DNA from: Methanocella paludicola SANAE
GTDB taxonomy: Archaea > Halobacteriota > Methanocellia > Methanocellales > Methanocellaceae
DNA: 64,000 bases
Reading direction: 5' to 3'
Assembly: GCF_000011005.1 (NCBI RefSeq)
Contig: NC_013665.1
Coordinates: 868,001-932,000 of the forward strand
Below are positions 3,470 to 37,737 of the stretch, in pieces. The notes beneath the pieces are model-generated. The model saw only the letters and a program-made list of their open reading frames with translations, ran no database searches and was not told the DNA's origin. Each line of letters begins with the position of its first letter. Position 1 is the first letter of the stretch. Both the position numbers and the translations under genes were made by a program.

Positions 3470-3481
3470 TTCTCTCCCAGC

Positions 3482-3745
3482 TCAAATCCCCAGTATGGCC
3501 AGAACCTTTTCGACAACGATGAAGGAAAAGACGATGACGCCAAGGATGATCACGATGTTTACACGCGAGCGCCATGCGGGCCGGACGGTAAAAGGGCCGC
3601 TGAGCTCGACGATAACGAGGAAGCCGATGAGGCATAGGACAAAGAAATATTCGTAGCTGATGCTGTCGAACAGCGCCAACAGTGCCAGCACTACGAAGAT
3701 CCAGCCCCCGAAAATATATACAAGTCTCTGGCTCCTGGTCAACAT
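3482..3745 (-). CDS. Small three-helix membrane protein heading MoxR operon
   Basis: An 87-residue protein with three predicted membrane segments (about residues 9-26, 30-48 and 62-84) and short basic loops. I do not recognise the family. It is the first gene of the minus-strand operon and ends 12 nt before the DUF4129 gene. No clear ribosome-binding site precedes ATG 3745. A TATA-like stretch (GGATATATACAT, minus strand) lies roughly 50 nt upstream, so the transcript may have a short leader. It probably partners the envelope complex encoded downstream, judged only by position. Confidence 0.7.
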   Translation of the reverse strand: MLTRSQRLVYIFGGWIFVVLALLALFDSISYEYFFVLCLIGFLVIVELSGPFTVRPAWRSRVNIVIILGVIVFSFIVVEKVLAILGI

Positions 3746-3837
3746 CTTTATACCAAATTATTCGATAGTATAATAATTTTGTTATCAGGGGAGTAATGTA
3801 TATATCCTTACACAGATATTAACTATGGGTCGAGAGC

Positions 3838-8438: not shown

Positions 8439-10388
8439 ATGCCTGTCGAGATGCCGGATCATATTTTAAGCAAGCTAAGCAGGGCGATGGATCAGCTTAA
8501 GGGCGTTTTCCGGAAGCGCGACACATCGAAGAATACGTTCGGATTGGGTGACCTGGCGTTCTTTTTTCAGTTTGTCCGACCGGTATGGAAACTGGGCGTC
8601 CTGAGCCTCATATTGACCGTCGCCATCGCGGCCTTCAGGTCCATGATACCACTGGGCGGAAAAGTGTTCATCGACTTTATCGTCAATCAGAACGGCTTCG
8701 AGGCCATTTCGGACATTCTTACGCCAATAGGCCTCGGATCCCTTGCACCGGCCATAATGAGCCTTTTCAGCTCGCTAAATCTAGTCATTGCCTTGCTGTT
8801 GATCGCCGGCATCTTTTACGGGCTGATGCAGGTCGTCCAGGGATACCTGACGGCAAAATACCAGCAGGAGCTGACATTTAACCTGGAGACACAGCTTTTC
8901 GACCATGTCCTGCGATTTCCCCTCACCTTCTTCAAGAATAAGCAGACAGGGTACCTGATGTCCCGGGTCTCGGACGACGTGGATACGCTGGAATATCTTT
9001 TCTCGAGCGCCATATCTCAGATCCTGTCGAGCGGGATGTACGTTATTTTTGGGGCAGCGATCCTGATATTATTGGATGTTAAGCTTGCAATTATCATGGC
9101 ATGCATGTTCCCGGTATATCTCCTGATACGATACTTCTTCTTTGCCCGGATCCGGGCCCTGAGCTATAGCGAGCGGGAATCGCACGCCGAGCTTTCGCAG
9201 GACATGCAGGAAGTGCTCTCCGGCGTCGAGGTGGTCAAGTCCCACGCGACTGAGGAGAAAGAGGTCGCAAGAGTCTCGGATCGGCTCCGGAAGGTCATCC
9301 AGGTGAGGCTCAACAACACGATCCTGATGTCCACGGCCAGCTCTGTCCTGAATAGCTTCCAGTATCTCTTATTATTAGTGATCATGATAGTCAGCGTCGG
9401 CGAGATACGCAGCGGCGCTATGACGATAGGCGACCTCGTGGCATTTATCGGCTACGTATTAACGCTGACCGGCTCGGTGAACAGCCTGTTTTATACTTAC
9501 CTGTCATTCCAGCCCGTGTTCGCGTCGATGGATCGGTTAAAGGAGATGTTCAGCATCGTGCCGGAGTTCGAGCGGCAGGGGAATAATAAAGCCCTGCTTA
9601 AGCCCGATAGAGTGACCGGGAATATAAAATACGCAGGCGTTTCCTTCGCCTATAACGTGAACGAGCCTGTGCTTAAGGATATTAGCTTTGAGGTGAAGCC
9701 TGGCGAAGTCGTGGCGCTAGTCGGCCCCAGCGGCGCAGGCAAGACCACGATGATCAATCTACTTCTTAAGCTGTATATCCCGCAATCGGGAGCCATCTAC
9801 CTGGACGGGAACGACCTGAACAAGATAGACCACGCCTGGCTGAGAAAACAGATAGGGATCGTGTCGCAGGATATTTTCCTGTTTAACGATACCATCGAGA
9901 ACAACATTAAGTATGGTAAAGCGTCTGCCACCCGGGAAGAAGTAATAGAGGCGGCGAAGAAAGCCCATATTCATAATCATATCCTGCAGATGCCGGATGG
10001 GTATGATACGGTTATCGGTGAGCGTGGCGCTAAGATGTCGGTGGGGCAGAGGCAGAGGATATCCATTGCGCGGGAGTTCTTGAAAGATGCGCCCATACTT
10101 ATTCTGGATGAGCCGACGTCGTCCGTTGATACGGAGACCGAGAGGTCTATAAAGGAGTCGATGAAGGAATTGACCAAAGGGAAGACTACGTTCATAATTT
10201 CACACAGGATGACGCTGGCGAATATGGCGGATAAGATCATTGTAATCGAGAATGGAAAGGTCGTGCAGACGGGGTCTCATCAAGAGCTCGTGATGAAAGA
10301 TGGCTTATATAAAACATTTTTTTCGACAGATGCTGCGGAATCGCCTGAAAGGACGTCCCCTGCGTATGGTTATAATGTAAACAATTAA
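8439..10388 (+). CDS. ABC exporter, fused membrane and ATPase domains (MsbA/LmrA type)
   Basis: A 649-residue half-transporter that would work as a dimer. The membrane domain spans roughly residues 45-340 with six helices. The nucleotide-binding domain follows with Walker A GPSGAGKT (about residues 429-436), Q-loop VSQDIFLFNDT, signature MSVGQRQR (about 533) and Walker B ILILDEPTSS, then the H-loop FIISHR. It exports lipids, peptides or drugs using ATP; the substrate cannot be told from sequence. It lies 2 kb from the modified-peptide cassette but on the other strand and with an insertion sequence between them, so a link to peptide export is only a guess. There are two possible ATG starts (8439 and 8451). 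GAGGG lies next to the first. Confidence 0.93.
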   Translation: MPVEMPDHILSKLSRAMDQLKGVFRKRDTSKNTFGLGDLAFFFQFVRPVWKLGVLSLILTVAIAAFRSMIPLGGKVFIDFIVNQNGFEAISDILTPIGLGSLAPAIMSLFSSLNLVIALLLIAGIFYGLMQVVQGYLTAKYQQELTFNLETQLFDHVLRFPLTFFKNKQTGYLMSRVSDDVDTLEYLFSSAISQILSSGMYVIFGAAILILLDVKLAIIMACMFPVYLLIRYFFFARIRALSYSERESHAELSQDMQEVLSGVEVVKSHATEEKEVARVSDRLRKVIQVRLNNTILMSTASSVLNSFQYLLLLVIMIVSVGEIRSGAMTIGDLVAFIGYVLTLTGSVNSLFYTYLSFQPVFASMDRLKEMFSIVPEFERQGNNKALLKPDRVTGNIKYAGVSFAYNVNEPVLKDISFEVKPGEVVALVGPSGAGKTTMINLLLKLYIPQSGAIYLDGNDLNKIDHAWLRKQIGIVSQDIFLFNDTIENNIKYGKASATREEVIEAAKKAHIHNHILQMPDGYDTVIGERGAKMSVGQRQRISIAREFLKDAPILILDEPTSSVDTETERSIKESMKELTKGKTTFIISHRMTLANMADKIIVIENGKVVQTGSHQELVMKDGLYKTFFSTDAAESPERTSPAYGYNVNN

Positions 10389-10710: not shown

Positions 10711-11764
10711 TAGGGTGTTGCATAATTAGTTTATGATGGTTGTTCTGGGGCTTTTTTCGTGAATTAGTTGGTGGAGTGCTTGGATTAGTCTTGCGATTAG
10801 GGTTATGCCGACTTTTACTTGGACTTTTTCTCTCCCAGTGGTTTTTAAGTCGGAAAGTCCTAGCTGTTCTTTGAGTAGGAAATTCGCGTGTTCGCAATCC
10901 ATCCTGTTTTTATATAATTGGTCGATCTTTTCATCGGCGAGTTCGAGGTAATCTTGTATCCTGTATTTGTTTACTGGTTTTTTAGTGTTCCTTTTATTCC
11001 TCGCAGCGATGAATAATACGCCTACTTCTCCATGGTTTTCTATGTTCTCTTTTGTGTCGTAGGCCTTGTCAGCGAGTATCGTGTTTACCTTGAAAAGGCG
11101 TGCTCCAAGCCTTTTTATCAGTGGCCTGGTCTGAGTATTATCATGACGGTTAGCCCTGGTAACCGTATAACAGATGGGAGTCATGGACTGTAGATCGTAT
11201 AACAAGTGAACCTTGTAACCGTAGTAGAACTTTTTCCTGATATGGTCATAGCCCCAATCGGCGTCCTCGTCTCCGAGGCTGAAAGCCTCCACCTTGGTAC
11301 TGTCAATGCCCAGCATGGACATGTGGAGCGGTTCTTCTCTCATGATCCCTGTATTAATGATCATCATGATCCTCGGAATGTGCTCTCCAAATCTGTCTTT
11401 ATACCTGCTAAACAGGCTATGATGTGGTAATCGATTAAAGCCAAGATTCTTCATTTTATATTTATCCCGTTCCAACAATCGTACCAATTTTCTTACCGAG
11501 GTAATACCGCTAAGCTCCATGTACAAAAAAGCTCGCAGGAAGGCGATCACACTATACCCGAAAGGCCTACCCCTACCCGGGTAACGCTCCAGGAAAACAA
11601 GAAGTTGCCAATCAAACGAATCCAAAACCTCAAGATGCACATCAGAAAGTATATTTAACTGACAACCAAGACAACTATGGGTTATCAGCAAGCCGTTTTT
11701 CACTACCATGAACAAAGCTTGCCCAGATAACCCCAAATACTTTTATGAATTCTGCAACACCCTA
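10711..11764 (-). mobile_element. IS4-type insertion sequence, copy 1 (1054 bp)
   Basis: The ends are perfect 12-bp inverted repeats, TAGGGTGTTGCA and TGCAACACCCTA. They enclose one transposase gene on the minus strand. The flanks carry a 9-bp direct repeat, AAAGAGTGA, at 10702-10710 and 11765-11773, so this copy inserted on its own. Its partner at 16487-17540 has exactly the same length and orientation. Confidence 0.92.
10726..11709 (-). CDS. DDE transposase of IS4-type element, copy 1
   Basis: A 327-residue DDE transposase starting at ATG 11709. The frame could extend to TTG 11736, but the second copy starts at the equivalent ATG. Catalytic acidic residues are visible in LGIDSTKVEA, LADKAYDT and the C-terminal YKNRMDCEHANFLLK. 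The last motif fits the Y-(2)-R-(3)-E-(6)-K signature of the IS4 family. The enzyme would cut and paste the 1054-bp element. The gene is intact and closely resembles the copy at 16502-17485, with scattered substitutions. Confidence 0.92.
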   Translation of the reverse strand: MVVKNGLLITHSCLGCQLNILSDVHLEVLDSFDWQLLVFLERYPGRGRPFGYSVIAFLRAFLYMELSGITSVRKLVRLLERDKYKMKNLGFNRLPHHSLFSRYKDRFGEHIPRIMMIINTGIMREEPLHMSMLGIDSTKVEAFSLGDEDADWGYDHIRKKFYYGYKVHLLYDLQSMTPICYTVTRANRHDNTQTRPLIKRLGARLFKVNTILADKAYDTKENIENHGEVGVLFIAARNKRNTKKPVNKYRIQDYLELADEKIDQLYKNRMDCEHANFLLKEQLGLSDLKTTGREKVQVKVGITLIARLIQALHQLIHEKSPRTTIIN

Positions 11765-11829: not shown

Positions 11830-12465
11830 TCATACAATTTTTTCCGAAGGCTTCGGAAGCGACTTATCATCAATAAAAAGTCTAAACGGCGGCCGTATAT
11901 TCCATTTACCGGTTGCGGGCACATATTTTCCAAGCATATGCTGCCCAACGACTAATAATAGCTCGTCGCCATCGGGTCTTTTAATGGTTATGACACGGTA
12001 TTTGATAAATCTGGGTAAAATGGCTCTACATATTCCGAATCTCGAAAGTATTCTATAAGGCCAATTGAGTACTTTTAATAACAGGGCATTTACGGATAAA
12101 ATATAGCCGTAGATTTTAGAAAATATGATTCCACAACCCCCATTATATACCCTGGATATCCTTTTGCCATGCTTTACATAGTATACCATGCCCATGATAT
12201 ATTCAGGGGTGCGGAAACCTCTGTCAGGTAGTATATTATTATCGCCCTTGGTCGTTACTCCGTTTTGATGGATAGAGATAACCCGATGGGCGATAATTTG
12301 AGAGTCGTATTCGTCTTTCCATTTAAAAACGATTACATCTCCGGATTGTATATTATTACAGGGAGCAATATAAAGGACATCTAAATCTCGGAATAAGGGA
12401 TACATGCTGTTACCGGTATAAACGATCTGCTTGAAGTCATCTAAAGACTTGACAGAGGCATTCAT
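11830..12465 (-). CDS. S26-type (signal-peptidase-like) serine peptidase of RiPP cassette
   Basis: A 211-residue protein with signal-peptidase I motifs: GNSMYPLF (Ser20, the expected nucleophile), AHRVI (His60, as in Sec11-type enzymes) and TKGDNN..PD (Asp75/Asp81). The usual N-terminal membrane anchor is missing; the only long hydrophobic stretch is after the catalytic domain (about residues 112-140). It is the last gene of the minus-strand peptide-modification cassette. Peptidases of this type occur beside several RiPP systems and may remove the leader peptide. That job is inferred from context; general signal peptide processing is the alternative. The insertion sequence lies 66 nt downstream. 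Confidence 0.8.
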   Translation of the reverse strand: MNASVKSLDDFKQIVYTGNSMYPLFRDLDVLYIAPCNNIQSGDVIVFKWKDEYDSQIIAHRVISIHQNGVTTKGDNNILPDRGFRTPEYIMGMVYYVKHGKRISRVYNGGCGIIFSKIYGYILSVNALLLKVLNWPYRILSRFGICRAILPRFIKYRVITIKRPDGDELLLVVGQHMLGKYVPATGKWNIRPPFRLFIDDKSLPKPSEKIV

Positions 12466-12515
12466 AATCGATTCCTTTAATCAATAATGTATTATTTATG
12501 ATATGTAGATTGTCT

Positions 12516-13433
12516 CTACGAGATATCTGGAAGCACCTTTTCAATTTCTTCCCAAAATTTACCCGTTAGGCTTACGCTAAGCCTGTATGAGCGTATTTTA
12601 CGGGATATGTCACAGGCATTATTGAACATTTGCTTTCTTATTCGGGCTTTTTCTGAATCCTCTAGATTATAAAATAGCCTGCCTCCCGCCTGCATTGCAA
12701 AAGTAAAGATCTCCGTTGCTGCAGTACCCTGCAAAAGTGGGATGACTTTATCTGAGCTGGCCTGCTCAAGGAAAAAGATAGCTTCTACGGGCACATGGCT
12801 CTGGGCATCCCATGTATGCCCAGGTTTATGCAATAGGAAATTACTCCAGGTGGGAAAAGGATGCGCATGGTAATTTTTCTCTGCATCACATACTATTAAG
12901 GCTTCATCATCGCAGAGGGGATGCCATGGGGGGGAAATGCGCCGACAACACGTGGATTTACCAGTCTGGCCATTCGCTGCAAGTAGAATGCCATGACCGT
13001 TCTTCTCAATGAGAGCACAATGGAACGGAAGCCCGCCGGAATTAATAGCTCTTGAATAGAACGGATATAACAAATAGCTCATTTTAAATATTTCTACTTC
13101 ATAGGGACCCTCCGTGCCAATATCACATATCGTATCCAATGTTTCAGTGTTTTGCCATATCTTAGCGAACCCTTCATCGATAAAGACCCATTTATCTCCC
13201 GGTAAATTTATTATTTTTTTCGCCTCCGATAATAATTCCTGACTCGGAACATTACCTGAAAAGGAACGTATTATAACCATTTTTTTTGAACAGCATGTAA
13301 AACTTTCGCTTAATCCCATTATTCCGGCAAATGTTTTTGTAAAAAGCTTAGCGTTGTCATTGGCGATAATGTACCAACTTTGGCCGCCAAATAAATTAAA
13401 AGAAAATTCATTTTGGTTTTTAACGGATTTCAT
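12516..13433 (-). CDS. HPr-kinase-like P-loop protein of RiPP cassette (ScmC-like)
   Basis: A 305-residue protein with a P-loop NGQTGKST (residues 154-161) after LPFHCALIEKNGHGILLAA, the arrangement of HPr-kinase/PEPCK-like ATPases. DDEALIV follows near residue 175. Such proteins are regular members of modified-peptide clusters with a PqqD-like carrier and may phosphorylate the peptide or another cassette protein. From memory, the layout matches ScmC of the SynChlorMet cassette, which also has two radical SAM/SPASM proteins; I could not check a model score. It lies between the precursor and the S26 peptidase genes, 50 nt from the latter, in one operon. Substrate unknown. Confidence 0.78.
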   Translation of the reverse strand: MKSVKNQNEFSFNLFGGQSWYIIANDNAKLFTKTFAGIMGLSESFTCCSKKMVIIRSFSGNVPSQELLSEAKKIINLPGDKWVFIDEGFAKIWQNTETLDTICDIGTEGPYEVEIFKMSYLLYPFYSRAINSGGLPFHCALIEKNGHGILLAANGQTGKSTCCRRISPPWHPLCDDEALIVCDAEKNYHAHPFPTWSNFLLHKPGHTWDAQSHVPVEAIFFLEQASSDKVIPLLQGTAATEIFTFAMQAGGRLFYNLEDSEKARIRKQMFNNACDISRKIRSYRLSVSLTGKFWEEIEKVLPDIS

Positions 13434-13496
13434 AAAAAGTATATAATCAGAGATGGTATGAATTTCAACATCTCTTGCTAAATTACACGATAATAA

Positions 13497-13679
13497 TCAT
13501 ACAACCGTGTATCCACCAGCGCATCCACCATTACCGCCGGCATTATATCCTGCACCACAGGACCCTTTACCTCCAGGGTTATTTGGTGCTGAACCGGGAC
13601 CACAACTATAAGGACTGCCGCCCAATGCTTTTTCGTTCAATACAATGATTTTTGGCTCTTCATATTGTATTTTAACCAT
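13497..13679 (-). CDS. RiPP precursor peptide, 60 residues, Gly/Cys-rich core
   Basis: A 60-residue peptide with a clear ribosome-binding site (GGGGTG, 7 nt before ATG 13679). The first 19 residues (MVKIQYEEPKIIVLNEKAL) look like a leader. The rest is a core rich in Gly, with Cys26, Cys41 and Cys53, Tyr24, Tyr45 and Tyr57, and several Asn and Ser. The three blocks SPYSCGPG, GSCGAGYN and GGCAGGY look like a loose repeat. It sits directly downstream of the two radical SAM/SPASM genes and upstream of the HPr-kinase-like gene, the expected place for the substrate. The modification is unknown; Cys-linked crosslinks (thioether, ranthipeptide-like) or Tyr-based ones are possible. Confidence 0.85.
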   Translation of the reverse strand: MVKIQYEEPKIIVLNEKALGGSPYSCGPGSAPNNPGGKGSCGAGYNAGGNGGCAGGYTVV

Positions 13680-13752
13680 TATTACACCCCTTTTGGATAC
13701 CTTTTTTCCTAATAGATAATTTTTTACTAGCTATAATACTTTACTTGTTAAC

Positions 13753-14853
13753 CTATATATCATTTTTGATTAATCGGGAGCCCGGGAACATATTGAGCTT
13801 CAGGGATTCTTCACAGTACCAGAAGGGCGACCAGAGGCTACTCGTTCGATAATAATTCTGCGCGATACAGCTCCCGAGGCAAATATTTTTCATCAGACAA
13901 CCCTTACAAACACCCTCGAGATGTCCCGGGATTTTTTCACGTATCTCTTTTAATGTAAGCGTATTATTCCAAACATCGCTAAGGCGGTCTTTAGTAGCAT
14001 TGCCGAAAACCATCTCGGGAATGGACTCTCCGATACCGCACAGGGCATAGGACCCATCCGAGAGGACCCCTATGATGCCCTTGATACCACAGATGCCGCA
14101 TCCATTGCTATTTTCGCCGAACATCCTTGCCAGCGGCCTGAAAGCAGGTGGATGGCCGAAAAATATCTTAAGGCTCGTGGAGCTGGATAATATATTCTCT
14201 ACCCACTCGCCTATATGTATAAGCTCCTCAATGGATAGTGTTTCACCCGAGTTGTGTAAATGTTTTCCCCGGGCAGTCGGCTGGACAATATTGAATTTTA
14301 CTGACGATGCGCCCAGTGTTTCCGCCAGCCGGATCATCTCCTCCATCTGGCCTTTATTGTGCCGCATGACGGTCATGATGATCTGTGGCGATACACCAGT
14401 CTCTACAAGATTTTTAATCCCGCTAATAGTATCATTAAAACAACCTTTTACTCCTCTGACCCATTCATGTGTATCCGCATTCACCCCGTCGAGGCTTACG
14501 CTCACGAACGGCGCATTGCATTCGGCTATCCTTCTCGACACATCAGGAGTACAGAACACACCATTGGTCTCTATACCGAGCCCTAGGTTCTCCTGTTTTA
14601 TGAGCTCAAGGATATTATTGATATCCGGGTGCATGAGCGGCTCTCCGCCGGTCAATTTAACGGCAGCAAGGCCAAGCGGCCTAGCCTGTTTAATGATCGA
14701 TTGGAAGAGATTAAAGGGTAAAGATGGATATGTGTGCTTACTGTCCTGGTATTTTGGCGCAATCCAGCAATGGCGGCAGTGCAGGTTACAGCCTTCCGTC
14801 AAGTAAAAGTATATCTGGTTTAGGGGATATTTTTCAACAACAGGCTCTTGCAT
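13753..14853 (-). CDS. Radical SAM/SPASM peptide maturase (ScmF-like)
   Basis: I chose ATG 14853, which overlaps the upstream stop as TAATG; a GTG at 14868 is also in frame. The product has 366 residues. The radical SAM cluster motif CNLHCRHC is at residues 22-29 and KLTGGEP follows. The C-terminal SPASM region has C-x2-C (GCGIC), a Cys in SYALCGIG, and GVCKGCLMKNICLGSC, which would bind auxiliary Fe-S clusters. Enzymes of this kind install crosslinks in peptides. It is translationally coupled to the first radical SAM gene and lies just before the precursor gene. It resembles ScmF by remembered layout only. Confidence 0.88.
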   Translation of the reverse strand: MQEPVVEKYPLNQIYFYLTEGCNLHCRHCWIAPKYQDSKHTYPSLPFNLFQSIIKQARPLGLAAVKLTGGEPLMHPDINNILELIKQENLGLGIETNGVFCTPDVSRRIAECNAPFVSVSLDGVNADTHEWVRGVKGCFNDTISGIKNLVETGVSPQIIMTVMRHNKGQMEEMIRLAETLGASSVKFNIVQPTARGKHLHNSGETLSIEELIHIGEWVENILSSSTSLKIFFGHPPAFRPLARMFGENSNGCGICGIKGIIGVLSDGSYALCGIGESIPEMVFGNATKDRLSDVWNNTLTLKEIREKIPGHLEGVCKGCLMKNICLGSCIAQNYYRTSSLWSPFWYCEESLKLNMFPGSRLIKNDI

Positions 14854-15980
14854 TATTCCACATCCCACTTTTCCGTGTCGTTATAGATATCAGCGACCCT
14901 TCCACCTTCCTCGATGAAACGGCGAAGGCATCCTTCAGGGCTCGGATGATTCACTTCGCCCGTCAGCGTATAGGCAAGCGCAGGACAGTTCCCCGTACAA
15001 TAGGGAATGTACTTGCATCTATTGCAAAACTCGAACTGCGACAGTGGTATCGTATGCCGCTCTCTTAACATGGTAAGCTTCGGGTGATGCTGCCAGATCT
15101 CTAGCAGGCTATCACGGTTGATGTGCCCCAGCTCCATGTGGCTGAGCTGGAGGCATGGCACGATGACGCCGTCAGGCCTTACCGCGAACTTTTCCAGAGG
15201 CCCGTTACATCCTGTAAGATAGCCTCTATCCGGTATAGATCTCTCCCCTTTGCTCAACGCTTCTTCCATTCCCGCCCATCTTCTAGCATCTGATAATGGA
15301 CCTGCCGAGGCGCTAATACGCCCATCATATTTTTTATTGAGCCTTAGAAGACTTTCCATCGCGAGCATATATTCATCGGCAGTCAATTGCACCTGCTTTT
15401 TATTTTTCCTGCAGAGGCCCATATAGGAGGCCGCATTCGTAGAAAATTCAGGGAGCCCAAGGTCTTCTAGCAGAAGCTTTGCGATATTGTCCAGGTCGCC
15501 GACGTTGCCCCTATGTATCGTGACACGTATGGATACGGGAACATCGTGTGCCCGGAGGAGCTTAACGCCTTCCATCGCACGCATGAAGTTGCCTTCTCCC
15601 CTGAATACGTCATGAGTCGATGGGATCGACCCGTCAATCGATACCTGCACCGTCTTACAGCGCCGGGTAGACGATAAAAATGCCGCAAGCTCGTCGGTGA
15701 TCAGCGTCCCGTTCGTTAATATGCTGAACCTCATCCGGTTCAGGATGATTCCTTCTATGATCTCTCGGATGTCGCTTCGGCAGAACGGCTCTCCGCCGCT
15801 TAAAGTGACGTCCATGACGCTGCAGCGGTTCAGCCCTTTAAAAAACTCCAGCCATTCCTCTTTCGGCAGGTCGTTGCTAATGTCGGACGCGCTAGTAAAA
15901 TGGCTGCAGTAGAGGCACCTAAGATTGCATTTTCCCGTGATCTCGATATCTACGGACCTGGGTGACCTCATGAGCTTCAT
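14853..15980 (-). CDS. Radical SAM/SPASM peptide maturase (ScmE-like)
   Basis: A 375-residue protein with the cluster motif CNLRCLYC at residues 18-25 and LSGGEP shortly after. The SPASM tail carries TGCNGPLEKF, VPCLQLS, FCNRCKYIPYCTGNC and PEGC, enough cysteines for two auxiliary Fe-S clusters. It is the first of two different maturases in this cassette, 16 nt downstream of the PqqD-like gene and overlapping the next one by 1 nt. The pair suggests two successive chemical changes on the same peptide, or a heteromeric enzyme. The family is secure; the reaction is unknown. Confidence 0.9.
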   Translation of the reverse strand: MKLMRSPRSVDIEITGKCNLRCLYCSHFTSASDISNDLPKEEWLEFFKGLNRCSVMDVTLSGGEPFCRSDIREIIEGIILNRMRFSILTNGTLITDELAAFLSSTRRCKTVQVSIDGSIPSTHDVFRGEGNFMRAMEGVKLLRAHDVPVSIRVTIHRGNVGDLDNIAKLLLEDLGLPEFSTNAASYMGLCRKNKKQVQLTADEYMLAMESLLRLNKKYDGRISASAGPLSDARRWAGMEEALSKGERSIPDRGYLTGCNGPLEKFAVRPDGVIVPCLQLSHMELGHINRDSLLEIWQHHPKLTMLRERHTIPLSQFEFCNRCKYIPYCTGNCPALAYTLTGEVNHPSPEGCLRRFIEEGGRVADIYNDTEKWDVE

Positions 15981-15996
15981 ATGAATAACCTGTCTT

Positions 15997-16275
15997 TTAA
16001 ACTTCTTGTCCAGCTAGGCCACGCTTTGTCAGGTCGCTAACGAAGTTGTTGATATGGTCTATTGATTTTTCCGGCACTCTATCGAATTGCGATATCAACT
16101 CGTTATAGATGTCTTCTACGGTATGCCGGCCATCCAGGCGTTTCCATATGAAGACGCCGATGGGGTTTAAGCCGTATACCTCGCCGGTGTCCGGATCGAA
16201 GAGTAATGCCCAGTCGTCGAACTCCTCGCGGAGGACGACGGACGGGTTCGCTATAGCTCTATTTATTGTTTCCAA
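15997..16275 (-). CDS. PqqD-like peptide-binding protein (RRE domain) of RiPP cassette
   Basis: A 92-residue protein that fits the PqqD family over its whole length: WALLFDPDTGEVYGLNPIG, then FIWKRLDGRHTVEDI. PqqD-like domains bind the leader of the precursor peptide and present it to the radical SAM enzyme. It is the first gene of the five-gene core, with the two maturases immediately downstream. About 120 nt upstream is a perfect 8-bp inverted repeat that may control the operon. An insertion sequence begins 211 nt upstream and separates it from the nucleotidyltransferase gene. Confidence 0.88.
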   Translation of the reverse strand: METINRAIANPSVVLREEFDDWALLFDPDTGEVYGLNPIGVFIWKRLDGRHTVEDIYNELISQFDRVPEKSIDHINNFVSDLTKRGLAGQEV

Positions 16276-16394
16276 TTTGTTTAGCCCCCTACACCCAGCG
16301 ATGTTTGGATGCTTATGTCTAGCACATAATTAATGTACAGTATCTGCGGTTCCTTTGTTTACCTTTACACATAAATAGCTAGTGGTGAACGACA

Positions 16395-16415
16395 ATCAAT
16401 TTGATTAAAATTGAT
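16395..16415. promoter_or_regulatory. Inverted repeat upstream of RiPP operon
   Basis: ATCAATTT, a 5-nt spacer and AAATTGAT form a perfect 8-bp dyad about 120 nt upstream of the PqqD-like gene. It lies in the 211-nt stretch between that gene and insertion-sequence copy 2. It could be an operator; no regulator gene is seen nearby. Confidence 0.4.
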
Positions 16416-16486
16416 AAAATTTCTGCATTTTAAAATAATTTTGTTCAATAATTTAGATAGTTATTGTAAAATTGTTTACTAGAACA

Positions 16487-17540
16487 TAGGGTGTTGCATA
16501 ATTAGTTTATGATGGTTGTTCTTGGGCTTTTCTGGTGAATTAGTTGGCGTAGTGCTTGGATTTGTCTTGCGATGAGTGTTATGCCAACTTTAACCCTGAC
16601 TTTTTCTCTTCCAATGGTTTTTAAGTCTTTTAGGCCTAGCTGTTCTTTGAGTAGGAAATTGGCGTGTTCGCAGTCCATCCTATTTTTATAAATACGGTCT
16701 ATAGTCTCATCCGGCATGTTTAGGTAGTCCTGTATCCTGTATTTGTTTACAGGTTTTTTGGTGTTTCTCTTGTTCCTTGCCGCTATGAATAATACGCCTG
16801 CATCCCAGTGTTTTTCTATGTTTTCCCTGGTGTCGTAGGCCTTGTCGGCGAGTATGGTGTTTACTTTCAGGAGGCGTGCTCCGAGCCTTTTAACCAGGGG
16901 AGTGGTCTGGGTGTTATCATGACAGTTAGCCCTGGTAACTGTATAGCATACGGGTGTCATGGACTCCAGATCATACAGTAAATGTACCTTGTAACCGTAG
17001 TAGAACTTTTTTCGTACATGGTCGAATCCCCAGTCAGCGTCCATGTCTTCCCAGCTGAAAGCCTCCAGCTTGGTGCTGTCAATTCCCAGTATTAACATGT
17101 GTAATGGCTCCTCCTTCATTATGCTTGTATTAATGATTGTCATGATTCTCGGAATGTGGTCCCGCAGCCGTTGTTTATACCTGCTGAACAGACTATGGTC
17201 TGGTAAACGGTGAAAGCCAAGATTCTTCATTTTATATTTATCACGCTCTAATACCCTCACCAGTTTTCTTACCGAAGTAATACCACTTAGCTCCATGTAC
17301 ACGAGAGCTCGCAGGAAGGCGATCGTGCTGTACTCAAGAGGCCTGCCTCTGCCCTTGTAACGCTCCAAGAAAACAAGGAGTTGCCAATCAAACGAATCTA
17401 AAACCTCAATATGCACATCAGAAAGTATTCGTATCTGACAATCAAGACAACTATGGGTTATCAGCAAGCCGTTTTTACTGGACATAAATACTGCTTGACC
17501 AGATAACCCAAATACTTTCTAAGACTTTTGCAACACCCTA
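16487..17540 (-). mobile_element. IS4-type insertion sequence, copy 2 (1054 bp)
   Basis: It has the same ends (TAGGGTGTTGCA / TGCAACACCCTA), length and orientation as the copy at 10711. It is flanked by a 10-bp direct repeat TACTAGAACA at 16477-16486 and 17541-17550. The outer flanks of the two copies do not match each other, so the pair did not jump as one composite transposon. This copy splits the nucleotidyltransferase gene from the PqqD-like gene. Confidence 0.92.
16502..17485 (-). CDS. DDE transposase of IS4-type element, copy 2
   Basis: A 327-residue intact transposase, colinear with the copy at 10726-11709. It has the same acidic triad context (LGIDSTKLEA, LADKAYDT) and the same YKNRMDCEHANFLLK signature. 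Differences from copy 1 are scattered substitutions, so the copies are not a very recent duplication. Confidence 0.92.
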   Translation of the reverse strand: MSSKNGLLITHSCLDCQIRILSDVHIEVLDSFDWQLLVFLERYKGRGRPLEYSTIAFLRALVYMELSGITSVRKLVRVLERDKYKMKNLGFHRLPDHSLFSRYKQRLRDHIPRIMTIINTSIMKEEPLHMLILGIDSTKLEAFSWEDMDADWGFDHVRKKFYYGYKVHLLYDLESMTPVCYTVTRANCHDNTQTTPLVKRLGARLLKVNTILADKAYDTRENIEKHWDAGVLFIAARNKRNTKKPVNKYRIQDYLNMPDETIDRIYKNRMDCEHANFLLKEQLGLKDLKTIGREKVRVKVGITLIARQIQALRQLIHQKSPRTTIIN

Positions 17541-17589
17541 TACTAGAACATATAATATGTATACGAATAACAAGTTATTTATTTTAGTG

Positions 17590-18813
17590 TTATATTTTTT
17601 TAATCAGTCTAAACCATCGTTTGATATAGCATAATAAAACGAGCCGATTACTTTTGAGATGATAATGTCCCCGCATATCTATGAATGATGGGAAGATTAA
17701 GTATATTAATATTTTAATTTTTTCCAAAAATGGAGCTGACTTAGGCCATCGAAGTTTAAACCGGCCAATAGTATTATTTCGTCCAATCATAGCATAAGAA
17801 AAAGCGGTAATTTCATCTTTTGTTGGTTTTGGCCATTTTGAGAAATCGCTGAATTCTGAGGGTATTTTTAACCCAGTCCAGTACTGGGATAGGATAAGAG
17901 ACTTTTCTAATGATAGCCGAGCTCTACATTCGACACTTCTTTTTTGAAGAATTCTCCAATCAGCAATTGTAAGGTTTTTACATAATTGAGAGATATCATA
18001 GATCCAATTTAATCGTACTTCCTTGCTATGTTGTAGAAATAAATGTAGCGATAGATAGATAATTGTATCAATTGTAGTTAAAGTTTCAAATGAAAAGTTA
18101 GTTGACTCTATTTTTACCGATCTATAAAAAAAATTACGAATATCAACTATATCAAGTAGAGGGACAAAAATTAATCTCCAATGGAGTTCTACAATCATGG
18201 AATTTTTTGAACATTTATCATATGTTTCATGATGGTAGTAATATTTCGATATATCAAATCTTTTTTTCAGGCATTTATAGCCCAAACTTTCCATAATTGT
18301 TCTTGAGCGGACAACGTCTTGTGGTAAAACCAGTATATCAATATCACTGCATAATCTCAAGGCTGGATCTAGATATAAGGTTCGTGCCAGAGCAGAGCCT
18401 TTTAAGATAATCATAGGGATATTTTCTTTGTTAAATACATCCACCAATTCTTTAAGTTGCATATCAGTAGTAATTGCACATGCCTTACTCTCAAGAAAGT
18501 TTCTTCGGAGTTCATCGACTAATTCTTTTGCTGGTCGCGATTCTTGAGGAATATGTAAAATTTGCCAATATAGTAATGGTAATATCCCATGAGGCTTTAG
18601 TGCTGAAAAAAGTTCATACCATTGTGATATAGATGAACTGGGAAGCCTAGGGATTTCGTTTTTAAGCAAGGATATAACATATAACAGAAGATCGTCTGGA
18701 AAATTTGAAAGAGCATTCTCTGGATCTCCGTACAAAGGATAATGCGTATGAATAGAACGTATATTATTTAAATCGTTATAACAACTTTGGGTACATTCGT
18801 TTTGCTCGTTCAT
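17590..18813 (-). CDS. Nucleotidyltransferase-like protein (NTP_transf_5 type), probable RiPP-cassette member
   Basis: A 407-residue protein. Residues near 130-180 read PMIILKGSALARTLYLDP and then LRLCSDIDILVLPQDV, the KG...DIDILV signature of PF14907-type nucleotidyltransferases. Family members commonly accompany HPr-kinase-like and PqqD-like genes in lasso-peptide and other RiPP clusters. It lies on the same strand as the cassette and just upstream of it, with an insertion sequence in the 1.3-kb gap. It may once have been the first gene of the operon. Base composition is more AT-rich than in the radical SAM genes. The substrate is unknown. Confidence 0.75.
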   Translation of the reverse strand: MNEQNECTQSCYNDLNNIRSIHTHYPLYGDPENALSNFPDDLLLYVISLLKNEIPRLPSSSISQWYELFSALKPHGILPLLYWQILHIPQESRPAKELVDELRRNFLESKACAITTDMQLKELVDVFNKENIPMIILKGSALARTLYLDPALRLCSDIDILVLPQDVVRSRTIMESLGYKCLKKRFDISKYYYHHETYDKCSKNSMIVELHWRLIFVPLLDIVDIRNFFYRSVKIESTNFSFETLTTIDTIIYLSLHLFLQHSKEVRLNWIYDISQLCKNLTIADWRILQKRSVECRARLSLEKSLILSQYWTGLKIPSEFSDFSKWPKPTKDEITAFSYAMIGRNNTIGRFKLRWPKSAPFLEKIKILIYLIFPSFIDMRGHYHLKSNRLVLLCYIKRWFRLIKKI

Positions 18814-19016: not shown

Positions 19017-20459
19017 ATGAGTAATAAATTAAAAGATATACTTGATAAGAAAGGTCCAATCAAGAATATTGGTGTTGTAGGAATGGGCTATGTGGGTATA
19101 CCGGCTGCCATGTTGTTCGCTAATTCGCCGGCATTTGATCACGTTTATGGGTTTCAGAGAAACTCCAAGTCATCTGGTTATAAGATCGATATGTTAAATC
19201 GGGGCGAAAGTCCGCTAAAGGGCGAGGAGCCCGGTCTCGAAGATTTGATTAAGAAAGTCGTTCAAGCTAATAAGTTCAAATGTATATCCGATTTCTCAAA
19301 AATATCTGAGCTCGATGCCGTTACGTTATCTATACAAACGCCATTTAAAAATCCGAAAGATTTGATACCTGATTTCAGCGCTTTAACTGAAGGTATTACA
19401 TTAGTTGGAAAATATATCAAAGAGGGCTCTCTAGTCGTTCTTGAATCGACTATTACGCCAGGGACAACAAATAGTATGGCTAGACAGATCCTTGAAAAAG
19501 AATCCGGTATGAAAGCTGGTGTAGATTTCGCACTTGCACATGCACCTGAGCGTGTAATGGTCAGTAGACTTTTAAAGAATATCCAGGAACATGACCGAGT
19601 GATTGGCGGCATAGATGATATTAGCACTAAAAGGGCGATCGAGCTATATTCGCCAGTACTGACGAAAGGAAAAGTTATACCGATGACAGCAACAGCTGCT
19701 GAGGTAACGAAGACTGCTGAGAACACATTTAGAGATTTACAGATTGCTGCGGCGAATGAGTTAGCATTGTATTGCGAAGCAATGGGCATTAATTTCTATG
19801 AAGTTAGAGCTGGTATCGATAGCTTGAAAGGTGAAGGCATTACTAGGGCGATATTATGGCCAGGAGCCGGTGTCGGAGGACATTGCCTGACAAAGGACAC
19901 CTATCATCTTGAGCGCGGTGTTAAGACGAACGGAGGTAAGCTTGATTATCTTCAAGAGGAGGAATCGCTATTTGTGTTGGCTAGACATATTAATGATTTC
20001 ATGCCGAAACACATGTTTAACTTGACAATAGCAGCGTTAGAAAGGGTTGGGGAAACTCCTAAAGATGCCAATATTGCAATGCTCGGATGGGCATTCCTTA
20101 AAAATTCTGATGATGCTAGGAATACACCTTCAGAATATTATAGAGATTTAATGTTGAGTGTAGGAGCGAAAGTCAAAGTACATGACCCATATGTCAGAGA
20201 ATATCCGGGTGTAGATATCTCACATGATTTAAATGAAGTGATTAGTGGATCTGATGCGATTGCGATATTCACTGGACATGATGTATATATGGATATGGTT
20301 CGAACTGCTAATAATATTAAAAGGTTGATGGGAAAATATAATCCTATCATAATAGATGGAAGGAATATAGTTAACCCTGATGAGTATATTGAAGCTGGGT
20401 TTATTTATAAAGGCATAGGAAGAGGAGACAAAAATAGCCATAGCATAGTAAATTTATAG
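19017..20459 (+). CDS. UDP-N-acetyl-sugar 6-dehydrogenase (WecC/WbpA type)
   Basis: A 480-residue protein of the UDP-glucose/ManNAc dehydrogenase family. It has an N-terminal NAD-binding GVVGMGYVG (residues 19-27), VLESTITPGTTN, the substrate-binding AEVTKTAENTFRD, and the catalytic cysteine in GAGVGGHCLTKD. These enzymes oxidise C6 of a UDP-HexNAc twice to a uronic acid, using two NAD+. With the oxidoreductase, aminotransferase and acetyltransferase genes downstream it would supply UDP-GlcNAc(3NAc)A-type sugars. It is the first plus-strand gene of the glycan cluster, 60 nt ahead of the flippase. WecC and WbpA cannot be told apart by eye. Confidence 0.9.
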   Translation: MSNKLKDILDKKGPIKNIGVVGMGYVGIPAAMLFANSPAFDHVYGFQRNSKSSGYKIDMLNRGESPLKGEEPGLEDLIKKVVQANKFKCISDFSKISELDAVTLSIQTPFKNPKDLIPDFSALTEGITLVGKYIKEGSLVVLESTITPGTTNSMARQILEKESGMKAGVDFALAHAPERVMVSRLLKNIQEHDRVIGGIDDISTKRAIELYSPVLTKGKVIPMTATAAEVTKTAENTFRDLQIAAANELALYCEAMGINFYEVRAGIDSLKGEGITRAILWPGAGVGGHCLTKDTYHLERGVKTNGGKLDYLQEEESLFVLARHINDFMPKHMFNLTIAALERVGETPKDANIAMLGWAFLKNSDDARNTPSEYYRDLMLSVGAKVKVHDPYVREYPGVDISHDLNEVISGSDAIAIFTGHDVYMDMVRTANNIKRLMGKYNPIIIDGRNIVNPDEYIEAGFIYKGIGRGDKNSHSIVNL

Positions 20460-20518
20460 GCTAGAATTAAAAAGGTTATATAGAGTTAATATAGGCCGAT
20501 AATACGGAATAGTCAAAA

Positions 20519-21793
20519 ATGTCAGATATAAAAAAATATTATACTGAACCCATATATAGGAATTCGATAGGAATTATATTATTCCAAATATCCGGTTCTT
20601 TATTGGGTTTTATATTTTGGGTTATAACGGCTCATGTAATATCTTCTAGAGAAATAGGATTAGCGACAGCAGCAATTTCAGCGGCGACGCTTATTACAAA
20701 TTTTTCTAAATTTGGAATAGATGTTGGTCTTGTACGATATTTACCCCAAGTAAAAGATAAAAACGTCTTGTATAGCACAGTTTTAATAGTTACTACGATA
20801 CTAGCACTTGCATTCGCTGTTATCTTTTTATTATTTTTAAATATTATTTCGCCATCGTTGACATTTTTACTTGATTTTGCATTATTAATAATGTTTGTAA
20901 GTTATGTCATATTAACTTCAATTACTACTATGCAAAATACAACATTAATAACTTATCGAAAATCAAATCTTGTAGTTTTACAAAATATAATTTTAGGTGT
21001 ACGTATACCATTAATACTATTAATTTCATCGTTCGGTGTTCTTAGTATATTTTTTTCGCTAGATGTAACATTTTTAATTGGGTTATTAATAAATACATTA
21101 ATACTTTATAAATATGGAACTAAATTTATATTAAGGGTTGATATTATAACATTTAAGGAGATTATCGGATTTTCGTTAGGTAATTATACTGCAGGAATAT
21201 TTTCATTGATTCCTACAACGATTATTCCAATAATGATAATTAATACATTAGGTGCTGAGCAGAATGCATATTTCTATATAGCTTATACATTCGCAGGAGT
21301 ACTTCTCATGATTCCGAGTTCAATAACTATGGCTCTTTTCGTTGAAGGATCACATAATTTACCAGTAAAAAGTAATGTATTTAAATCAATCAAATTAATA
21401 TCTTTAATTTTGATACCTGCGGTAATATTTGTATTTTTATTCGGTGATAAACTTTTATTATTATTTGGAAAAGAATATGCTAATAATGCATTTAATTTGT
21501 TAAAGTTACTTGCGATATCGAGTCTATTTTCATCCGTAACATTGATTTATTTATCAATTAAAAAGATAAAGAAAGATATTAAAATATTAAATATTATGAA
21601 TTGTATTTCATGCATATTTACGTGTTTAACGGGATATATAATGCTTGTGAATTATGGGCTTATTGGATTAGGATATAGTTGGTTAATAACAAATTTCCTT
21701 CTATGTGTAATAACAATATATATTATAATAAAATATGAACACTGGATAAATTCTAGTCTCATTAAAACTTTTAAAAGTAGATCAGTAAATTAA
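20519..21793 (+). CDS. Oligosaccharide flippase (Wzx/MATE-like)
   Basis: A 424-residue, very hydrophobic protein with about 12 membrane helices and almost no loops longer than 15 residues. Its N-terminal region (NSIGIILFQISGSLLGFIFW) is typical of polysaccharide-biosynthesis flippases of the MOP superfamily. These move lipid-linked sugars across the membrane. It follows the UDP-sugar dehydrogenase gene and is probably cotranscribed. The DNA is strongly AT-rich (many AAT, TTA and ATA codons), unlike the window's core genes. It converges on the glycosyltransferase operon with a 147-nt gap. Confidence 0.85.
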   Translation: MSDIKKYYTEPIYRNSIGIILFQISGSLLGFIFWVITAHVISSREIGLATAAISAATLITNFSKFGIDVGLVRYLPQVKDKNVLYSTVLIVTTILALAFAVIFLLFLNIISPSLTFLLDFALLIMFVSYVILTSITTMQNTTLITYRKSNLVVLQNIILGVRIPLILLISSFGVLSIFFSLDVTFLIGLLINTLILYKYGTKFILRVDIITFKEIIGFSLGNYTAGIFSLIPTTIIPIMIINTLGAEQNAYFYIAYTFAGVLLMIPSSITMALFVEGSHNLPVKSNVFKSIKLISLILIPAVIFVFLFGDKLLLLFGKEYANNAFNLLKLLAISSLFSSVTLIYLSIKKIKKDIKILNIMNCISCIFTCLTGYIMLVNYGLIGLGYSWLITNFLLCVITIYIIIKYEHWINSSLIKTFKSRSVN

Positions 21794-21939
21794 CAATTTA
21801 TATACTGAGATTGGGATATCTCCTACCTTTTATTCATGGTGCAAATATTAAAAATTGGTTACTAGTCTTATAGGCATTATACTTGTAAATATTCGATTCA
21901 AAATTAATAAATAACGTATAAAAACTCATTATAATCACT

Positions 21940-23778
21940 TTAATCTCTTCTAGTATACCAGATATTACCAGTTTTGTGTTCAGAATTTGGAACCTTATCA
22001 ATATAGTATGTAGCAACTCTGCCTGAATCATATATTTGATAACTTAATGATCTTGTATCTAATTGGGTAAAATCATAATTGGTATAATAACCACCGTAAG
22101 GAAATTCCATAAACTTTCTCATTAAGTCGGTAACGACTGCATAATTAACATTATATATCTCAAGTTTGCTAACATTAATACCAATAGGTTCAGTATTACT
22201 AATTTCAGTTTGCATTAGTGTTGCATCTCTATCGCCATAACCAGCTATAAACCCTATTGTATGTGTTCCCTCAGTCCAGATAAGTGAATTATCATTAGTA
22301 TACTTATTAACCCATACAGATACATCTATATTATAATGCTCGATAAAACGAGGCGTCTGGCCTTGTGAATAAGCGATAACATCTTCAGGATTATTACTAT
22401 ATAACCAGTTACTTGGTAATACGACTTCCCCAGTAAAAAACGGGGCTGGTAATATTATAACAATTAGTATTAATAAGACAGCGATTAATTTTATATGTTT
22501 ATTTGAGATTATTTTAAAAAATTTATTTAATAAATAACCGGTAGCAATAATTAACCAAAGAGATGAATAAACAAGCGTTCTATAGAATGTAGTACTTCCA
22601 ACACCGCCTGAATAATTTATTATAAAAAATAACAATGCGAAAGCAGATAAAGGTAAAATAACACTAATAAATTTTTTTTCTCGAATTATAACTGTAAAAC
22701 CAATTATTGACATCAATATAAAAAAAGCTACCCTTAATAGACCAAAATATCTAAGTTCGGTACTAGCAATTGAATAAGAAGTTGAAGGGGCACTGCCAGT
22801 TGCAATTGCGCCAATAATCGAATCAGTAAATAAATTGTTATATGAAGTATAAAATTGGTGAATAATATGGATAAATGGATATAGCAAAAACGTATAATAT
22901 ATCCAAATGACGACAAGGCAAATCGTTAAAATAGCAGCAAAGAATGTAAAATTTTTATTACTTATTGGTGAATTATCAATAATTTTACTATATTTTATTG
23001 GAACATGCGATCGAATAAGTTCATATATCACAATCGTAATAAGGCTAAGAACCCCGAATAACGATACAACAGGATGAGAGAATAGGAGCACTAATGCAAA
23101 TATATACAATAGAATAGATATTGATACCGATTTATTACTTTGATATAATTTAATTATTAGGTATCCGAAGATAATTAAGACTGATACACCTATTGTTGTC
23201 CTTGTAAATTGAATCATCCATCTACTTACAAAAGCAAGAGAAATCCAAATCATCGATGTGATAAGAGCAGATTTATCATCATTAGTGATTTTTTTAATTA
23301 TTGTGTATATAAAAATAGTTGTAATTAAACTTAGAAGCGTTGGGACCCATATAGCGATATAATAAATTTTAAGAACATCCCCATACCCAGTTATTAACCC
23401 AATAAAAGCAGTATATAAATGAATAATCGGATAATGCCCAGAAATATAATAATTAGCTGTTTCGATAAACCCATTCCTAATAATATATTGTACTGATGCA
23501 AGATCGGTTTGTGAATCTCCTTGGAATAACCCAAACCTAAATGCGAAAACTGATATAATTGACATAGTATAAAATATTGATAATAATAGATAAATTGTCT
23601 TTAAATTATATATAATAGCTAAAAAAATAATTATCCAAATAAATATCATTAACAATAAATATGAGTATGGAAGAAAAATATTATAATGTAACACAATGTA
23701 GAGTAATATAATGATATTGATGAATACAGATACTAATAAGTAACTTAGCGACTTGTTTAATTTATTTTCCATAATCAT
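21940..23778 (-). CDS. Multi-spanning membrane protein, GT-C glycosyltransferase-like
   Basis: A 612-residue protein with 11-13 predicted membrane helices over its first 420 residues, followed by a soluble tail of about 170 residues. The region after the first helices (RFGLFQGDSQTDLASVQYII, then YYISGHYPIIHLYTAFIG) has the acidic first-loop layout of lipid-sugar-dependent GT-C enzymes. I cannot assign a family. It is the last gene of the minus-strand glycan operon, 6 nt after a GT4 gene. A second ATG two codons on is equally possible as start. The sequence is very AT-rich. Confidence 0.65.
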   Translation of the reverse strand: MIMENKLNKSLSYLLVSVFINIIILLYIVLHYNIFLPYSYLLLMIFIWIIIFLAIIYNLKTIYLLLSIFYTMSIISVFAFRFGLFQGDSQTDLASVQYIIRNGFIETANYYISGHYPIIHLYTAFIGLITGYGDVLKIYYIAIWVPTLLSLITTIFIYTIIKKITNDDKSALITSMIWISLAFVSRWMIQFTRTTIGVSVLIIFGYLIIKLYQSNKSVSISILLYIFALVLLFSHPVVSLFGVLSLITIVIYELIRSHVPIKYSKIIDNSPISNKNFTFFAAILTICLVVIWIYYTFLLYPFIHIIHQFYTSYNNLFTDSIIGAIATGSAPSTSYSIASTELRYFGLLRVAFFILMSIIGFTVIIREKKFISVILPLSAFALLFFIINYSGGVGSTTFYRTLVYSSLWLIIATGYLLNKFFKIISNKHIKLIAVLLILIVIILPAPFFTGEVVLPSNWLYSNNPEDVIAYSQGQTPRFIEHYNIDVSVWVNKYTNDNSLIWTEGTHTIGFIAGYGDRDATLMQTEISNTEPIGINVSKLEIYNVNYAVVTDLMRKFMEFPYGGYYTNYDFTQLDTRSLSYQIYDSGRVATYYIDKVPNSEHKTGNIWYTRRD

Positions 23779-23784
23779 TTTACC

Positions 23785-24786
23785 TTATATTGATTCATAT
23801 AATTTTAAATATTCTCTTGCCATACGCTCTAATGTAAATTTATCAAGAATACGCCTTCTATTATATAACCCCATTTTATTTTTTAAATCGTCGTCTTCAG
23901 CAATCAACTTTATATTAGATGAAAAGTCATTGATGTTATCTTTCTCACACAAAAAGCCTCCTTTGCCATCTATTATTAGTTCTGGCATTGAGGAACAATT
24001 CGTAGTTACAACAGGCTTTCCACAGGACATAGCCTCAGCAATTGCTAATCCAAATCCCTCTAATCTTGAAGGAAAAATAAATATATCGCATAAATTGTAA
24101 ATATTAACGAGGTCGTTTATATTTATTTTACCTAATGTTCGTATATTATTATAAGAATCTGCATGATAATTTCGTAAACCTGAAGTTGCAATCAACAAGT
24201 AGTCATCATCCAATTTTTTCATAATTTGTGGTAATAAATCGGATCCTTTCCTCTTAGAAAGATTTCCAACAAATAATAAAACTTTTTTATTACTGTCTAT
24301 GTTATAATGCGATTTATCAACTGTTCTTGGAGAAAATAAATTTTCATCTATTCCATTATAAATTACCTTTGAGTCAGTATAGCCAAGAATCTTCTCGAGT
24401 CTTTGCTGAGTATATTTACTTACACACGTAACAATATCTGCGACTTTTAAAGATTTTTCTTCATATTTTTTAATTAATTGATAATAGATCTTTTGCCTTT
24501 GAGATAAATAATTAGAATACATAGGATCATACATTATATGATGCTCTGTTACTACTAATGGGTTATCATTTTTAAAGGGAAATCCACAGGAGATATTGGA
24601 ATGCGTTATCGTATGTGGTTCATCATGTATATTCGTTAGATGTAATAAATATGGGCAAAATGCATCATACAATGGATAATATTTAACAGAGCTAATTACA
24701 CCAAAGTTAACTAATTCAGCAGATAAATTATTACTCCATACGTCGATACCTGAATTACCCTTTATCTGTTTAAAAATAACTCTCAC
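23785..24786 (-). CDS. GT4-family glycosyltransferase
   Basis: A 333-residue GT-B enzyme. The C-terminal half has VLLFVGNLSKRKGSDLL and RLEGFGLAIAEAMSCGKPVV, the E-x7-E nucleotide-sugar signature of GT4. The N-terminal acceptor half contains TEHHIMYDP and IVTCVSKYTQQRLE. It transfers a sugar from a nucleotide donor to a glycan acceptor in the cytoplasm. It starts where the upstream GT4 gene ends (shared base), so the two are coupled. Donor and acceptor are not known. Confidence 0.88.
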   Translation of the reverse strand: MRVIFKQIKGNSGIDVWSNNLSAELVNFGVISSVKYYPLYDAFCPYLLHLTNIHDEPHTITHSNISCGFPFKNDNPLVVTEHHIMYDPMYSNYLSQRQKIYYQLIKKYEEKSLKVADIVTCVSKYTQQRLEKILGYTDSKVIYNGIDENLFSPRTVDKSHYNIDSNKKVLLFVGNLSKRKGSDLLPQIMKKLDDDYLLIATSGLRNYHADSYNNIRTLGKININDLVNIYNLCDIFIFPSRLEGFGLAIAEAMSCGKPVVTTNCSSMPELIIDGKGGFLCEKDNINDFSSNIKLIAEDDDLKNKMGLYNRRRILDKFTLERMAREYLKLYESI

Positions 24787-26009: not shown

Positions 26010-26040
26010 TATTACTTACTCCATCAAGAAAAATATTGGA

Positions 26041-27612: not shown

Positions 27613-27620
27613 ATCCCCAT

Positions 27621-29690: not shown

Positions 29691-29696
29691 TTCAAC

Positions 29697-37730: not shown

Positions 37731-37737
37731 TGGACAT

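Follow-up and report, generated by a model that had tools for sequence, protein, structure and literature searches.

A proposed LPP-type reading, with two radical SAM/SPASM maturases, of the SynChlorMet (Scm) cassette of Methanocella paludicola

The stretch of DNA considered here, called the window, comprises 64,000 nucleotides of the methanogen Methanocella paludicola SANAE (positions 868,001 to 932,000 of NC_013665.1, the single contig, of 2,957,635 bp, that makes up this genome), and it carries a real and complete cassette of an already named family, SynChlorMet (Scm). The reading proposed, to which a probability of roughly two in three is attached, is that Scm is a pathway to a ribosomally synthesised and post-translationally modified peptide (RiPP) of the type recently described in Bacillota as linear polyphosphorylated peptides (LPP; Popov et al. 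2026; PMC13381572), with two radical S-adenosylmethionine (SAM)/SPASM maturases added, such that Cys-containing repeats of a precursor would be modified and phosphorylated, the leader cut off and the product exported. The observations that carry it are the gene content, the intact catalytic residues, the folds of the kinase ScmC and of the S26 peptidase, the leader motif and the repeat; what is new here is an enlarged list of parts, a code of repeat and cleavage site as read from the precursor sequences, and the LPP-type reading itself.

Profile scans of the window's proteins used curated models with cut-offs (NCBIfam TIGR models and Pfam), and all five Scm equivalog models were matched, far above cut-off, by genes at 11830-16275 on the minus strand. 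These are ScmD, a PqqD-like RiPP recognition element (RRE) with a TTG start (15997..16275; TIGR04248, 162 bits against a cut-off of 100; also PF05402); ScmE, a maturase with the motif CNLRCLYC (14853..15980; TIGR04250, 721 bits, cut-off 400); ScmF, a second maturase with CNLHCRHC (13753..14868; TIGR04251, 714 bits, cut-off 400), for which a GTG start is taken, an ATG at 14853 also being possible; the Gly- and Cys-containing precursor ScmA, of 60 amino acids (13497..13679; TIGR04252, 64.7 bits, cut-off 35), which has homologous peptides in relatives; and the HprK/PEPCK-fold kinase ScmC (12516..13433; TIGR04249, 525 bits, cut-off 125). On the same strand lie an S26 peptidase of the SPC/Sec11 type with Ser-His-Asp, the predicted leader peptidase (11830..12465; TIGR02228, archaeal signal peptidase, 60.5 bits, cut-off 51.85), and an NTP_transf_5 nucleotidyltransferase-like protein (17590..18813; PF14907, 152.6 bits, cut-off 31.2).

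A first-pass annotation of this DNA had named these seven genes between 11830 and 18813, and each was found where it had been placed; the likeness to Scm that it proposed was correct, and the ScmA-like frame beside the maturases proved to be conserved in relatives. Its proposal of a product that would be crosslinked and phosphorylated agrees with the evidence gathered here. Its account of what belongs to the cassette stands as to the named genes and falls short in extent, since an MsbA-like ABC exporter on the plus strand (8439..10388; Pfam ABC_membrane and ABC_tran, i.e. membrane and ATPase domains, no peptidase domain being found), probably the exporter of the product, was overlooked, as were an insertion sequence (IS) element, with its transposase at 16502-17485, inside the interval and a second copy at the interval's edge. 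The label “archaeal” was too narrow, as Scm cassettes also occur in several bacterial phyla. That the gene set does not consist of chance open reading frames follows from the clustering of the same genes in relatives and from the presence, in most cassettes examined, of a Cys-Gly peptide with the same leader. The name SynChlorMet we take to be built from Syntrophobacter, Chlorobium and Methanocella, M. paludicola probably being one of the founding genomes; no relevant paper on SynChlorMet or Scm, or on HprK together with radical SAM and RiPP, was found in the open-access literature searched.

The precursor peptide and its radical maturases

For comparison 38 ScmA-like peptides were gathered, using a search pattern that combined the leader motif with at least two occurrences of C-x2,3-G. 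The universality of the leader motif [YW]xxPx[LIVM], in which Pro is present in all 38, Y or W comes first and L, V, I or M stands at +5, is therefore partly a product of the search, and the count of Gly at C+3 given below is somewhat biased for the same reason; the count of Ala at C+6, the Cys spacing and the linker motif are features for which no selection was made. In the window the motif is YEEPKI (YxxPx[LIV]; 13647..13664), the predicted binding site of ScmD, and in LPP the YxxP motif is likewise bound by the RRE (PMC13381572). A Leu occupies the ninth position in 29 of 37 precursors. Further on, a linker Gly lies at positions 15-17 counted from the Tyr of the motif in 33/37, and the linker motif [AG]xG is found in 29/37 (8.7±2.3 in shuffled sequences). 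In LPP the residue at the cleavage site, T-1, occupies position 16 of the same register (PMC13381572), and because the Gly motif sits at this distance cleavage of ScmA is predicted at the linker Gly, which in the window is the region Gly20-Gly21 (ALG/G; 13617..13622).

The cores consist of tandem C-x-x-G-x-x-A units of about 10 residues, with from 2 to 15 Cys per peptide and a mode of 10 for the Cys spacing. Gly is present at C+3 for 141 of 187 Cys (40±5 in shuffles) and Ala at C+6 for 75 of 187 (24±4). The clearest repeat is that of locus L033, CTAGPTASRD CTAGTAALNN CSQGVSAIPA CTAGDSATGA CTAGGQVT. In the window three units can be set out: CGPGSAPNNPGGKGS (13560..13604), a C-x-x-G unit; CGAGYNAGGNGG (13524..13559), which has C-x-x-G-x-x-A; and CAGGYTVV (13500..13523). 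At 14-15 Cys, the ScmA peptides of L045 (3758-4165) and L146 (7345-7704) are exceptionally large, and each of these loci has two ScmC genes.

These numbers bear on one quite different explanation, in which ScmA would give rise to a small cofactor or redox carrier, like the precursors of pyrroloquinoline quinone (PQQ) or mycofactocin, and would be broken down instead of being exported in peptide form. ScmD is indeed PqqD-like, and ScmE and ScmF give low-scoring matches to the models of PqqE and mycofactocin; however, the precursors of PQQ and mycofactocin have a single modified site, as against 2 to 15 Cys in repeats of variable number in ScmA, and a leader peptidase, a kinase and an MsbA-like exporter belong to the set, so that this explanation is considered very improbable.

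The two maturases are the best conserved of the proteins aligned (mean column identity 59-61%), and in each the three radical-SAM Cys and seven SPASM Cys are invariant (14 homologues of ScmE, 15 of ScmF). The cassette thus has SPASM maturases with both auxiliary clusters together with a Cys-containing core, the combination looked for in sactipeptides and ranthipeptides. If ScmD binds the YxxP leader and presents ScmA, ScmE and ScmF would then modify the tandem units, most likely by introducing a single thioether at every Cys, at a cost of 2 Da apiece; it is the Cys-Gly pattern that makes thioethers the likeliest radical product, other chemistry at each repeat being possible. In one such alternative the maturases would form no crosslink, and would make some other change to Cys or its neighbours (for instance formylglycine made from Cys, the reaction of anaerobic sulfatase-maturating enzymes (anSME), an epimerised residue, or a C-C bond of the TvgA kind), while phosphorylation, cleavage and export would proceed as before. 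SPASM enzymes are chemically diverse: the solved structures nearest to ScmE are SkfB and PqqE, with weak similarity also to anSME (4k37), ScmF shows weak similarity to the decarboxylase BlsE, and TvgB provides a precedent for modification of a repeat by something other than a thioether (PMC9062424). Against this, the invariant residues of the core are Cys and Gly, as is typical of thioether RiPPs, and the C-x-x-G unit is unlike the C-x-P-x-R motif of anSME. The alternative is judged unlikely, though it carries appreciable weight.

Kinase, peptidase and nucleotidyltransferase

In ScmC the residues H138, G158-K159-T161 of the P-loop and D175-D176 are invariant among 12 sequences, and these motifs align with the corresponding motifs of HPr kinase in a profile match to 1ko7. 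The AlphaFold2 model (predicted local distance difference test, pLDDT, 88.8) has PEPCK as its best match in the PDB (E 9.6e-9) and HPr kinase 1ko7 at 1.8e-5; the TM-scores are modest, and the 50 PDB matches listed all come from the PEPCK/HPr kinase superfamily. On the evidence of the model, then, ScmC has a PEPCK/HprK fold with intact catalytic motifs. In the S26 peptidase S20, H60, D75 and D81 are invariant among 11 homologues, and the model (pLDDT 87) has the human signal peptidase complex and the LexA fold as its top PDB matches, together with an extra C-terminal helix and beta domain beyond residue 108. This C-terminal domain (residues 109-190 of the protein at 11830-12465) is conserved across Scm-type S26 peptidases, with invariant W188 and P193, and is missing from a short homologue of 158 amino acids in Clostridia (locus L054). 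The nucleotidyltransferase, which in a genome search proved to be the sole full-length copy of PF14907, retains K138-G139, D157-x-D159 and E209 as invariant residues; its sequence gave no match to solved structures, and by analogy of role and context it may be regarded as the counterpart of LppN and PsmN.

In the pathway proposed ScmC would phosphorylate a Ser or Thr of the core, and the nucleotidyltransferase may decorate the phosphate further. Cleavage by the S26 peptidase would follow the conserved [AG]xG and free the core of its leader, and export of the product would fall to the ABC protein. Every reaction, its place in the order and the type of thioether are inferred. The order (RRE-guided radical modification, then phosphorylation, cleavage and export) is the most likely one in view of the precedents of LPP, where the leader peptidase LppS requires the RRE (PMC13381572), of pseudomycoidin, where kinase and nucleotidyltransferase (PsmK/PsmN) phosphorylate and then hexosylate the peptide (PMC9266682), and of TvgB, a SPASM-type pathway in which each unit of a repeated core is modified (PMC9062424).

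It could also be that the phosphorylation and nucleotidyl module does not act on ScmA at all, ScmC and the nucleotidyltransferase being either pseudoenzymes or servants of the adjacent polysaccharide locus, in which case crosslinking, cleavage and export alone would concern the peptide. The position of the cassette beside a glycan locus (19017-30176), the lack of the nucleotidyltransferase from some cassettes and the inactivity of LppN in a heterologous test (PMC13381572) would agree with this; it is nevertheless judged decidedly unlikely, given that the catalytic motifs of both proteins are invariant, that seven loci encode a fusion of ScmC with the leader peptidase, and that in LPP the same set of kinase, peptidase and RRE phosphorylates its own peptide (PMC13381572).

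Relatives, recurrent parts and setting

In a sample of 394 genomes from the organism's own phylum, 9 carried a ScmC above cut-off; the figures were 17/395 for the phylum of a deltaproteobacterial record, and 2/148 and 4/98 for two other groups. Named records that bear it include Chlorobiaceae, Nitrospirae, Aminicenantes, Omnitrophota, Lentisphaeria, Brocadiaceae, Syntrophales and Methanogenium. With profiles made from the archaeal set, some 40 related loci were scanned, which come from archaea and from several phyla of bacteria, and the counts that follow refer to the 28 neighbourhoods with enough flank to be complete, with the qualifications that the loci were gathered via ScmC and that the counts depend on score thresholds chosen by the authors. 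ScmD is present in 26, ScmE and ScmF in 24 each, the S26 peptidase in 25, the ABC protein in 21 and the nucleotidyltransferase in 18, while the S26 gene is next to or fused with ScmC in 22 (the fusions, in seven loci, being those of L032, L034, L035, L148, L150, L151 and L152). Exporter and nucleotidyltransferase genes occur together with the cassette in, for instance, L029, L033, L037 and L041, and it is this company that makes the exporter of the window a member of the cassette. The S26 peptidase, the PF14907 nucleotidyltransferase and the MsbA-like ABC exporter are thus recurrent parts of Scm, a point not made before.

Weaker matches to ScmC, S26, nucleotidyltransferase and ABC proteins in Clostridia (L050-L056) suggest that the parts of Scm and LPP are homologous. 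One of these loci, in Ruminiclostridium (L054, 6171-12691), has a nucleotidyltransferase, a PqqD-like protein, a ScmC-like kinase, the short S26 peptidase, an ABC exporter and small YxxP peptides (7449, 9177, 9387), with a single ScmE-like SPASM protein at 110 of the 400 bits required, i.e. below cut-off, and is a related cassette beyond the curated Scm models. In L039 a second set (1622-5676) stands beside a proper Scm cassette, comprising a PqqD-like protein, an AhbD/NirJ-like SPASM protein, a kinase near HprK_rel_B and a Cys peptide with a YKKP leader (3027-3230). A single ScmD/E/F set in L030 (8634-18159) is accompanied by two sets of ScmC, S26 and nucleotidyltransferase and by three ScmA peptides, which suggests diversification of the tailoring module.

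The window's cassette is interrupted by two IS elements of 1054 bp on the minus strand, neither of them a functional part of it: one at 10711..11764 (transposase 10726-11736; target-site duplication AAAGAGTGA), which parts the core cassette from the exporter, and one at 16487..17540 (target-site duplication TACTAGAACA), which lies between ScmD and the nucleotidyltransferase and so parts the core cassette from the latter. Both have TAGGGTGTTGCA ends and a transposase with a DDE_Tnp_1 domain, and they are 83% identical across about 1060 aligned bases. As each copy has a target duplication of its own, of 9-10 bp, the two are independent insertions; a composite transposon moving the segment from ScmD to the S26 gene, as their flanking positions might suggest, is ruled out on the same ground. 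A plasmid-borne origin was also considered and rejected, no relative of ScmE being found at E<=1e-40 in the plasmid collection. The surface-glycan locus that the cassette adjoins encodes a UDP-sugar dehydrogenase, a flippase and glycosyltransferases. Unrelated to the cassette, three consecutive nitrogenase-like genes (NifD/NifK/NifH-like by eye) are found at 34994-38589.

A number of points weigh against the pathway as proposed. The window's own ScmA is a short and irregular member of its family, its three Cys being spaced by 15 and 12, and expression of this cassette may have suffered from the two IS insertions. As regards phosphorylation, Ser or Thr is found at C+4 to C+6 in 128 of 196 units and Ser in only 87, LppK phosphorylates core Ser3 and accepts only Ser (PMC13381572), and no conserved Ser matching it was found among the ScmA precursors. 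Deletion of LppN had no visible effect (PMC13381572); the nucleotidyltransferase is missing from 10 of the 28 complete neighbourhoods, and the ABC protein from 7. Homology does not fix the type of crosslink, because SkfB, PqqE and BlsE perform different reactions.

A wider claim is put forward tentatively, its chances being put at somewhat under even: Scm cassettes would define a class of RiPPs common to archaea and bacteria, in which repeated Cys thioethers form a ladder that bears phosphate (possibly phosphosugar) groups. Such a product would be a polyphosphopeptide with crosslinks, a kind of molecule with no reported structure. Should the LPP-type reading hold, phosphorylated RiPPs would extend to archaea, and radical crosslinking, phosphorylation and an S26 leader peptidase would be combined in one pathway. 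When the Scm families received their names from genome data, neither mechanism nor product came with them; the part-for-part match to the experimentally studied LPP pathway, together with the reading of the core as a repeat with a predicted cleavage site, opens the way to direct tests in a cultured methanogen.

Comparison with known systems

The NCBIfam Scm models (TIGR04248-TIGR04252) describe the same five genes, all above cut-off here; they do not cover the S26 peptidase, the nucleotidyltransferase or the exporter, and state neither a repeat code nor a mechanism. Paeninodin-like and pseudomycoidin lasso peptides (PadeK, PsmK/PsmN) share with Scm an HprK-like kinase, a nucleotidyltransferase, a discrete RRE and [YW]xxP leaders (PMC9266682, PMC13381572), but their phosphorylation is on a C-terminal Ser; a lasso peptide as the product was rejected, no macrolactam synthetase or transglutaminase-like B2 protease being found among the cassette proteins of the window that were scanned. 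Sactipeptides and ranthipeptides, the TvgA/TvgB system (PMC9062424) and the Cys-every-fifth peptides (CefB, NF038107) resemble Scm in having SPASM maturases that act on Cys-rich or repeated cores, whereas Scm pairs two distinct maturases with a kinase, an S26 peptidase and a nucleotidyltransferase, and its repeat is a C-x-x-G-x-x-A unit of about 10 residues.

The part-for-part correspondence is with LPP, whose cluster as published encodes the YxxP-leader precursor LppA, the HprK-like LppK, the RRE LppB, the SpI-type Ser-His-Asp peptidase LppS, the MsbA-like LppD and the NTP transferase LppN, often beside capsule genes (PMC13381572). All six roles are matched by ScmA, ScmC, ScmD, the S26 peptidase, the ABC exporter and the nucleotidyltransferase, the last five of which bring an HprK-like kinase, an RRE, an SpI-type peptidase, an MsbA-like exporter and an NTP transferase into one cluster; polysaccharide genes lie alongside, as they do in the window, and the LPP leader motif YxxPx[VL] has its equivalent in YEEPKI. 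The leader end HQxIxFET of LPP is replaced in Scm by a Gly-rich linker with neither FET nor a conserved Ser at that site, and whereas the LPP product is linear, with no other primary modification enzyme, Scm has two full SPASM maturases. According to the LPP paper, in which radical SAM enzymes are not mentioned, LPPs are confined to Bacillota (PMC13381572); relative to LPP, Scm adds the Cys-Gly repeat core and a peptidase lengthened by a C-terminal domain, and it is spread across archaea and several bacterial phyla.

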